Shown here: one piece after another, positions 25,851 to 27,374 of the stretch
How positions within the stretch are numbered: position 1 is the stretch's first letter
Layout: each line of letters begins with the position of its first letter
NCBI RefSeq assembly: GCF_024714495.1
Contig: NZ_JAMZMJ010000019.1
Coordinates: 1-64,000, forward strand
Source of the DNA: Marinoscillum pacificum
GTDB lineage: Bacteria > Bacteroidota > Bacteroidia > Cytophagales > Cyclobacteriaceae
DNA: 64,000 bases
Reading direction: 5' to 3'
Program-made: the position numbers and the translations under genes
The notes under the pieces: model-generated
Databases searched by the model: none
What the model saw: the letters and a program-made list of their open reading frames with translations, nothing else
Told to the model about the DNA's origin: nothing

Positions 25851-26528
25851 GTGGAGCAACAAATTATGGACGACCTGTCCATAGACTGTGTCATATTTGG
25901 TTTTACCGATGAACTTAAAGTTTTGCTAGTAAAACATGCAGAAGGAATTAGCAAAGGCAAATGGGCCTTGCCTGGTGGATGGATCACCTATGATGAATCA
26001 CTGGATCAGGCTGCTAATCGTATCCTCAATTTACTGACAGGTGTAGATAATTTGTTTTTAGAGCAGCTGAAAGCTTTCGGCTCAGTAGAACGTTTCCCTT
26101 CTAAACGTGTGGTTACAGTCGCTTACTACACTTTAATTCGAGATTCAGATTATGATGTTGTAGCTGGGTTTACTGCTTCTGATGCGCAATGGTTCTCGAT
26201 CAATGATATACCTGACCTACCTTATGATCATCAGGAGATCTTGCAATATGCCTGGGATCAGCTAAAGCACAAAGTGAAGCAGGAGCCAATTGGATTTAAC
26301 TTATTGCCAAAGAAATTCACCTTACTTCAATTACAAAACCTATACGAATCAATTCTTCAGATTAAGTTAGATAAGCCGAACTTTCGCAGAAAGATGCTCG
26401 GCATGAAGTTGCTGATCGATTGTGATGAAAAACAAGACAATGTCTCTCATCGTGCCGCCAAACTTTATCGATTCAACGAGGAAGTATACCAATCGCTGAA
26501 GGAACACAAGTTTGTATTGGATTGGTGA
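25851..26528 (+). CDS. Nudix-fold transcriptional regulator of xylose genes (NrtR/AraR-like)
   Basis: A 225-residue paralogue of the gal regulator at 18642, with the same two-part build: Nudix-like sensor (about 5-135) and winged-helix C-terminus (FTLLQLQNLYESILQIKLDKPNFRRKML). The Nudix box GGWITYDESLDQAANRILNLLTG lacks the catalytic glutamates, so it should sense rather than hydrolyse. Shared blocks with the paralogue include IDC-x-IFG, FLEQLKAFG, GFNLLPKKFTLLQLQ and NFRRK. The GTG at 25851 gives an N-terminus of the same length as the paralogue; ATG at 25866 is an alternative. Divergence from xylBA indicates a xylose regulator. Confidence 0.88.
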   Translation: MEQQIMDDLSIDCVIFGFTDELKVLLVKHAEGISKGKWALPGGWITYDESLDQAANRILNLLTGVDNLFLEQLKAFGSVERFPSKRVVTVAYYTLIRDSDYDVVAGFTASDAQWFSINDIPDLPYDHQEILQYAWDQLKHKVKQEPIGFNLLPKKFTLLQLQNLYESILQIKLDKPNFRRKMLGMKLLIDCDEKQDNVSHRAAKLYRFNEEVYQSLKEHKFVLDW

Positions 26529-26539
26529 TTATCACCAAA

Positions 26540-26693
26540 CGTCATTCCCCGAATTTGAGGATCAATAAAAAATCTTCCTCTTCATCAATTTAAATTCTAG
26601 GGGAATCTATTTTGCCACAAGAATTGGACTCCCTTAGAATCAGTCATTGTTCTTCCAAATCATGAAATAAGTCCTATGATTCAGGGAGTGACG
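26540..26693 (+). repeat. Palindromic MITE-like repeat, copy 1
   Basis: A 154-bp element bounded by CGTCATTCCCCGAAT and ATTCAGGGAGTGACG (imperfect terminal inverted repeats). An inner pair ATTCTAGGGGAATCTA / TTGGACTCCCTTAGAAT lies around the centre. About 85-90 percent identical to copies 2 and 3 by eye. Together with copy 2 it fills the 379-base gap before the GIY-YIG gene. No coding capacity. Confidence 0.9.
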
Positions 26694-26706
26694 ATAAATT
26701 AATACA

Positions 26707-26861
26707 CGTCATTCCCCGAAATTGAGGATCAGTAAAAAATCTTCCTCTTCATCAATTTAAATTCTAGGGGAATCTATTATGCCTGCATAAATTAGACTCC
26801 CTTAGAATCAATGATAGTTCTTCCAAGTCATGAAATATACCGCATAATTCAGGGAGTGACG
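26707..26861 (+). repeat. Palindromic MITE-like repeat, copy 2
   Basis: A 155-bp element in the same orientation as copy 1, 13 bases after it, with the same terminal and internal inverted repeats. It ends 46 bases before the GIY-YIG start. Four short cores (ATTCCCC, GGGGAAT, ACTCCCT, AGGGAGT) alternate in direction, so the element can fold either as two adjacent hairpins or as one long nested stem. Confidence 0.9.
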
Positions 26862-26907
26862 ACAAAAGGTGTTTTGAATAAAACCACAATCCTCCTATCT
26901 TTTAAAA

Positions 26908-27210
26908 ATGAGTGCAAAAGGCGGCTACACATACATTGTTTCCAATAAATCGAGGACAGTCCTATATACTGGTGTCACAAGTAATCTTTATAATCGGATA
27001 TGGGAACATAAAAATGGGTTTGGCTCCGCATTTACTGTAAAATATAAATGCCACGATTTAGTCTATTTTGAATTTCATCCAACGATTCAGGATGCAATTC
27101 ACAGAGAAAAGAGGATTAAAAAGTACACAACAGAAATGAAAGACAAACTCATCTATTCTTTTAATCCTAAGTTATCAGACCTTTTTGATCAAGTACAAGA
27201 ATTGCAGTAA
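26908..27210 (+). CDS. GIY-YIG single-domain nuclease (UPF0213/YhbQ-like) embedded in palindromic repeats
   Basis: A 100-residue protein that is only the GIY-YIG fold. Visible motifs are Tyr7-Thr-Tyr9 (GIY position), Leu-Tyr20-Thr-Gly22 (YIG position), Arg30 and His34 in LYNRIWEHK, metal-binding Glu67 in AIHREKRIKK and Asn86 in SFNPK, so the active site looks complete. No DNA-binding domain is attached. It sits 46 bases after repeat copy 2 and 9 bases before copy 3. Relatives in Bacteria have been linked to DNA repair or structure-specific cleavage; here the flanking palindromes suggest a role on hairpin DNA (inference). Confidence 0.92.
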   Translation: MSAKGGYTYIVSNKSRTVLYTGVTSNLYNRIWEHKNGFGSAFTVKYKCHDLVYFEFHPTIQDAIHREKRIKKYTTEMKDKLIYSFNPKLSDLFDQVQELQ

Positions 27211-27219
27211 GGTCAAATT

Positions 27220-27374
27220 CGTCATTCCCTGAATATAATGATCGATAAAAAATCTTCCTCTTCATCAATTTAAATTCTAGGGGAATCTATTATGCCTCCA
27301 TATTTTAGACTCCCTTAGAATCAATGATAGTTCTTCCAAGTCATGAAATAAACCGTATGATTCAGGGAGTGACG
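27220..27374 (+). repeat. Palindromic MITE-like repeat, copy 3
   Basis: A 155-bp copy in the same orientation as copies 1 and 2. Its termini CGTCATTCCCTGAAT and ATTCAGGGAGTGACG pair at 14 of 15 positions, the best of the three. It begins 9 bases after the GIY-YIG stop and ends 12 bases before the ROK kinase stop, so it may also act as the 3' end of the PUL 2 transcript. Confidence 0.9.

Follow-up and report, generated by a model that had tools for sequence, protein, structure and literature searches.

Two inverted REPs whose tags face outward form a REPIN, and a RAYT gene bounded by inverted REPs forms a REPtron. The enzyme of REP/RAYT REPtrons is an HUH Y1 tyrosine enzyme and their tag is GTAG. 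HUH tyrosine enzymes and GIY-YIG nucleases are not known to be related. For the CGTC REPs, the accessible part of PMC3733652 states that they "apparently lack a dedicated transposase", that their units flank no transposase gene and that their partner is an open question; GIY-YIG does not occur in the text of that paper. Stand-alone, single-domain GIY-YIG proteins are known as the bacterial Slx1-cluster and UPF0213 proteins, which in the accessible part of PMC1564403 are predicted repair enzymes; the string 'palindrom' is absent from that paper. The combination of GIY-YIG with "repetitive extragenic palindromic" gave no match in the open-licence PMC literature. A link between GIY-YIG and REPs was also not found among the top-ranked matches from the wider open-licence literature, which does not establish its absence from print.

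We analysed a stretch of 64,000 nucleotides of Marinoscillum pacificum (contig NZ_JAMZMJ010000019.1; hereafter the window), in which a small GIY-YIG gene lies among palindromic repeats (Table 1). The initial annotation had described three 155-bp palindromic repeats in one orientation around this gene; their coordinates were borne out, with lengths of 154-155 bp. With a probability of roughly 0.6, we consider the locus to be a member of a widespread group of miniature mobile elements in which CGTC-tagged REPs are combined with a stand-alone ~95-aa GIY-YIG nuclease and which would be copied by repair after REP cleavage.

Table 1. Features at and beside the GIY-YIG locus of the window.
Feature	Position	Strand	Description
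Nudix-winged-helix regulator (NrtR/AraR type)	25866-26528		upstream of the element
REPIN-like repeat copy 1	26540-26693	+	two inverted CGTC-tagged REP units; folds as two hairpins
Copy 1 left REP unit	26540-26609		CGTCATTCCC..GGGGAATCTA
Copy 1 right REP unit	26627-26693		GACTCCC..GGGAGTGACG
REPIN-like repeat copy 2	26707-26861	+	88% identity to copy 1; one nested stem
Stand-alone GIY-YIG nuclease, 100 aa, single domain	26908-27210	+	PF01541 E 5.3e-14; AlphaFold2 mean pLDDT 93
REPIN-like repeat copy 3	27220-27374	+	92% identity to copy 2; one nested stem

Aligned with copy 1, copies 2 and 3 each had 88% identity (E 9.8e-51 and 3.1e-49), far more than expected by chance. An ungapped comparison put copy 1 at only 62%, because it is one base shorter. 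The window copies start with CGTCATTCCC and end with GGGAGTGACG, so that the CGTC tag directly precedes the stem. Each copy is an inverted dimer of REP-like units with the CGTC tags outward, which is the layout of a REPIN. The terminal inverted pair of copy 3 is 95% complementary over 20 nt. The left end of this copy also pairs with the right end of each of the other two, whose own inverted-repeat ends were read by eye. The two alternative foldings previously proposed for these repeats proved real, with two hairpins best for copy 1 and one long nested stem best for the other two.

We compared the repeats with the CGTC REPs as described in the accessible part of PMC3733652. The position of the CGTC or TGTC tag immediately ahead of the stem, the opening of the stem with A-T pairs, the inverted dimers, the CCA-like tails (in many loci) and the occurrence in several phyla are the same here. 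However, those REPs have stems of 8-9 bp, whereas the window units are ~70 bp long and few in copies. The window units have an inner structure instead of an 8-9-bp stem with a loop of 4-5. CGTC REPs are also high-copy and dispersed, whereas the window repeats had five matches in the 6.4-Mb genome (E<=0.001), three of which were the copies around the GIY-YIG gene. The other two lay on contigs C15 (roughly full length by eye) and C32 (partial), and neither contig had a GIY-YIG match in the PF01541 listing of this genome. Because the short stem and the high copy number are lacking, we did not file the window repeats in any of the described CGTC families, although they have the tag and the dimer of these REPs.

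The gene of the window stands between complete REPINs and not inside one, which is the less common arrangement. We did not find an empty site for this locus: in a search of 97 relatives, the neighbouring ROK kinase had no counterpart above 47% identity. The kinase had been used as query against 98 genomes, including the own genome, and 18 had a match at E<=1e-40; these loci served as control genes only. Neighbours of the Nudix-winged-helix regulator are presumably genes for xylulokinase and xylose isomerase.

The 100-aa reading frame starts with ATG, and the gaps to the adjacent repeats measure 46 bases (copy 2) and 9 bases (copy 3). It was confirmed as a GIY-YIG protein, for which the initial annotation had noted an apparently intact active site; residues Y9, Y20, G22, R30, H34, E67, K71, K78 and N86 are present. 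Among the relatives (best 80 of 570 confirmed loci), Y9 is kept in 79 of 80 and the other eight residues in all 80. Three positions that are near-invariant in the alignment of relatives differ in the window protein (W73Y, R75T and W77M). The GIY-YIG domain takes up residues 6-76 of 100 in a single compact predicted fold; no further Pfam family, and thus no NUMOD or other separate DNA-binding domain, was found by Pfam in the protein. The closest solved folds were UPF0213, the branched-DNA nuclease Slx1 and the UvrC N-domain (weak Foldseek matches, best E 1.5e-3), and the closest solved sequences were 1zg2 and 1ywl. We presume that COG2827 is a possible label for this clade. GIY-YIG homing endonucleases of the I-TevI type share with the locus the nuclease superfamily and the position of the gene within its likely target. 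They differ in that the protein here has no NUMOD or DNA-binding domain and no intron or intein, and in that the target is multicopy and palindromic. Because there is no accessory domain and no intron, we do not regard it as a classical homing endonuclease.

Five GIY-YIG proteins of the own genome were used to scan genome contigs, and the best 80 of 570 confirmed loci were kept (hereafter the best-80 set). According to the record titles, the best-80 set includes Bacteroidota, several proteobacterial classes, Nitrospinae, Spirochaetes and Elusimicrobia, as well as Omnitrophus, Anaerolineae, Campylobacteraceae and Patescibacteria-type names. In this set we made an unbiased count of hairpins (stem >=8, loop 3-25) and read the four bases outside both ends. 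Up to 600 bp from the gene there were 3.05 hairpins per kb, vs 0.90 per kb beyond 1.5 kb. Near the gene (284 hairpins, 568 ends), 123 ends had CGTC and 64 had TGTC. Comparatively, the distant hairpins (408, with 816 ends) had CGTC at 43 ends and TGTC at 11. By eye, the short form of the CGTC REP with its 8-9-bp stem fits many of the other loci in the best-80 set. The repeats are far denser at GIY-YIG genes than elsewhere, which answers the density check suggested in the initial annotation.

With a looser hairpin model, a CGTC- or TGTC-tagged hairpin was found within 400 bp of the gene at 66 of 76 loci of the best-80 set (four of the 80 had short flanks), and on both sides at 46. Seven scrambled tag pairs gave at most 18/76 on one or more sides and at most 2/76 on both. 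Pseudo-positions at least 2.2 kb away in the same loci gave 29/254 and 0/254. Control genes were similarly poor in tagged hairpins: 4/26 for ParE toxin genes, 1/21 for ROK kinases and 5/29 for ferredoxin genes, with none on both sides in any of the three groups (0/26, 0/21 and 0/29). Two GIY-YIG sets that partly overlap with the 80 loci agreed, one alphaproteobacterial (16/24, both sides 9/24) and one further set (20/26, both sides 12/26). The GIY-YIG genes of the own genome gave 4/11, with 3/11 on both sides. Two results speak against the main reading. No tagged hairpin was found within 400 bp at 10/76 loci of the best-80 set, and a mixed GIY-YIG set from the phylum of the window gave only 3/26 (both sides 2/26). 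It is possible that longer loops and mixed GIY-YIG subfamilies caused the low count in the phylum.

The tags are also oriented. Among the 46 both-sided loci of the best-80 set, the tags faced outward around the gene in 28, inward in nine and were mixed in nine; the outward fraction is well above the chance value of 1/4 (P = 3e-7). In 30 loci of the outward form, whose gene ends were refined, the hairpin ahead of the gene lay a median of 22 bp from the start and the one behind it a median of 9 bp from the stop; from tag to tag, the median length was 373 bp (range 353-568). The best-80 set contained 94 adjacent outward tag pairs, of which 58 had a gap below 100 bp and four a gap above 600 bp. 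The remaining 32 pairs had gaps of 200-600 bp; 31 enclosed a GIY-YIG frame and one held something else. Since the 80 loci were chosen by GIY-YIG homology, this length class is expected and counts that start from the REPs are biased.

We also surveyed similar sequences flanking the genes on both sides. At the first settings, they were found at 7/11 own-genome and 17/28 phylum GIY-YIG loci, at 0/21 ROK loci and in 20/910 random tiles of the own genome; in the best-80 set, the counts were 57/76 for GIY-YIG loci vs 64/2412 for tiles. Slightly different flanks gave 8/11 and 18/26 for the own-genome and phylum GIY-YIG loci, 10/24 for the alphaproteobacterial and 11/26 for the further GIY-YIG set, 1/21 for ROK, 0/29 for ferredoxin and 8/26 for ParE. 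Because the ParE controls scored this high, we demoted the test as unspecific. These eight ParE loci come from toxin genes of the window's phylum (L316-L345), none of which has CGTC-type hairpins on both sides. The repeated ParE flanks might suggest that small mobile genes and REPs both collect in permissive intergenic regions, without a functional link. Yet the complete lack of both-sided tagged hairpins at the 26 ParE loci argues strongly against this, and the orientation and spacing of the REPs around GIY-YIG genes are far from random. We regard shared space as the least probable explanation.

The own genome had 12 PF01541 matches at E<=0.01, one of them in a 607-aa frame of UvrC size. Similar sequences within 600 bp on both sides accompanied 7 of the 11 testable genes (8 of 11 with other settings). 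Five of them (L006, L008, L009, L011 and L012) had REP-like families that were different at each gene, and in a 400-kb sample of the genome each family was present only at its own GIY-YIG gene. Searched genome-wide, the L011 family had 12 matches, six at its gene and the rest short pieces elsewhere. Across 70 loci, the similarity of the REPs (16 bases after the tag) covaried with that of the GIY-YIG proteins (Mantel r 0.50, 0/2000 permutations as high). After a GC correction r was 0.47 (0/2000 permutations), in which shared ancestry partly remains.

Some GIY-YIG genes adjoined tRNA genes. A tRNA gene was present at 13 of 39 GIY-YIG loci scanned (L015 and L016 share one) vs 0 of 30 ParE loci. 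By eye, these genes belong to another subfamily; they comprise L010, L013, L015 and L016 in the own genome and L042, L049, L051, L056, L059, L062, L063, L064 and L065 in the phylum. At several of them, a piece of the tRNA or of its terminator has a second copy on the opposite side of the nuclease gene, so that they look like a tRNA-targeted homing element as far as the sequence goes. L015 and L016 (G000:C11:812893-813468) are tandem GIY-YIG genes, ~93% identical over 441 bp, one of which has a stop. They lie near a tRNA-Met gene, whose 3′ end and terminator recur behind the two GIY-YIG genes.

The initial annotation had suggested that, in this lineage, a GIY-YIG nuclease could play the role that a RAYT has elsewhere, cutting or mobilising hairpin DNA. 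The association was strongly supported and extends across phyla, beyond this lineage; cutting and mobilisation by the protein are what we infer from it. That gene and REPs move as a unit is supported by sequence evidence from three groups.

In one Erythrobacteraceae genome, a single pair of copies (L093 and L106) was 95.4% identical over 415 bp at unrelated sites, as is seen with insertion sequences and MITEs. On the left, the shared stretch starts precisely at the CGTC tag. On the right, it continues for 50 bp beyond the tag, which counts against the main reading, and closes in a second short palindrome, TGTCCGC..GCGGACA (L093:4850-4890 and the right ends of both copies). A similar sequence is also present upstream of the L093 element, at a distance of ~70 bp. 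We take the gene labels at the two sites to be uvrC, ferredoxin, nifS and helicase. An empty-site search for L093 gave a ferredoxin match in 63 of 79 genomes of the family, and 30 loci were compared; no clean empty junction was found, as all 29 other loci lacked a GIY-YIG match and likewise the downstream neighbours. The two genes differ by dN 0.014 vs dS 0.102, which indicates purifying selection in this pair.

This selection, together with a predicted fold closest to UPF0213 and Slx1, would suit a domesticated host enzyme of repair or recombination that resolves REP hairpins or cruciforms and is hence kept beside REPs. However, a housekeeping enzyme is difficult to reconcile with a patchy presence in 47 of 142 alphaproteobacterial genomes. 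Genomes of this class had up to 10 copies, mostly dissimilar where compared, and some copies were frameshifted or contained stops. The recent second copy in the L093/L106 pair is also against it. We find a housekeeping role quite improbable. The dissimilarity of copies was seen in 20 stretches from three multi-copy alphaproteobacterial genomes, and because of it no further element boundaries could be obtained.

The second group is Sphingobium, in which we compared a plasmid site with fnrL on one side and a response regulator on the other, using the 12 best-covered of 252 records that had any match. The GIY-YIG element was present in 7 of 12, a single CGTC..GACG-bounded palindrome without the gene stood at the same place in 2, and neither was present in 3 (the sequences were examined for four of the seven filled sites and all five others). 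One filled copy, TomTYG73, has lost one base in the gene. By eye, the gene-less site of TomTYG72 (L312, ~1115-1185) has no CGTC REP and a different palindrome-rich filler. The single-REP allele could be a deletion product instead of the state before insertion. No target-site duplication was seen at L093/L106 or in Sphingobium, the sites examined. In the third group, two REPINs near the GIY-YIG element of Rhizobium sp. CIAT894 match its arms ~15-30 bp past the hairpins, and a REPIN query found 7 places in the same plasmid. Judged by sequence, the match of the arms fits REPINs being gene-less derivatives of the GIY-YIG element.

We also surveyed 142 alphaproteobacterial genomes, in which the exact CGTC-1 REP pattern was present in 17, the GIY-YIG clade (E<=1e-10) in 47 and both in 11. 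The co-occurrence was only moderate: the clade was present in 11/17 genomes with REPs vs 36/125 without (P = 0.005). Genomes rich in the repeat but without any GIY-YIG gene of this clade had been named beforehand as a finding against the proposal, and genomes that have the repeat without such a gene do exist (6/17, from assemblies of unstated completeness). Therefore, REPs can exist without the gene. Five of the six have a single GIY-YIG match, in a frame of 642-720 aa (UvrC-sized), and one has none. The richest are G299 (6 REPs, 658-aa GIY-YIG frame) and G359 (9 REPs, UvrC-sized frame of 688 aa).

These genomes speak for the main alternative, in which a selfish homing-type nuclease gene entered pre-existing CGTC REPs as a passenger while the REPs spread via another enzyme. 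Two Sphingobium sites that lack the gene bear one palindromic REP each, which is consistent with such an entry, and other GIY-YIG genes adjoin tRNA genes, as a homing gene might. Of the outward bracketing by tags, the repeat families private to one gene and the alleles that lack the gene, a passenger would explain most as well. Yet the covariation of REP and protein, the private families at the GIY-YIG loci of the own genome and the equality of REPIN arms and element arms in Rhizobium argue against it. We consider this alternative unlikely, though less so than the housekeeping role.

We return to the mobile element. The GIY-YIG/REP element would work like a REPtron, with which it shares one small nuclease or transposase gene bounded by inverted tagged REPs and the gene-less inverted dimers. 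It falls outside the RAYT family: its enzyme is of the GIY-YIG type (PF01541) and its tag is CGTC or TGTC. In the proposed mechanism, the compact form would have the gene inside a REP dimer with the tags outward, ~370 bp from tag to tag, and ordinary CGTC REPINs would be its gene-less, MITE-like form. The Slx1-like nuclease would recognise the tag together with the hairpin or cruciform that its own REPs can form; for a protein that lacks a separate DNA-binding domain, reading DNA shape along with the tag seems the simplest option. It would then nick or break recipient REPs, and host recombinational repair would copy the REPs, or the whole REP-nuclease-REP unit, from a donor copy. The net effect would be homing into a palindromic, multicopy target. 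Such cleavage and recombinational copying would explain why outward tags bracket the gene, why repeat families are private to one gene and why some alleles lack the gene.

In our judgement, the GIY-YIG protein is the partner that the CGTC REPs have been lacking; it probably cuts their hairpins and spreads by recombinational repair. More tentatively, at slightly less than even odds, CGTC REPs may be the footprints of autonomous ~370-bp elements that encode a GIY-YIG protein only and cut REP hairpins without a transposase or integrase, with related GIY-YIG genes targeting tRNA genes in the same way. If so, few known autonomous mobile elements would be as small, and their footprints would make up the second great super-family of palindromic repeats in bacteria. 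If the nuclease is the partner, a single small protein in purified form and a single oligonucleotide would be enough to address the question. A class of repeats found in several phyla would gain an origin, and a nuclease of ~95 residues could suffice for a mobile element. It would also imply at least two origins of a RAYT-like partnership with palindromes, involving enzymes that are unrelated to each other.
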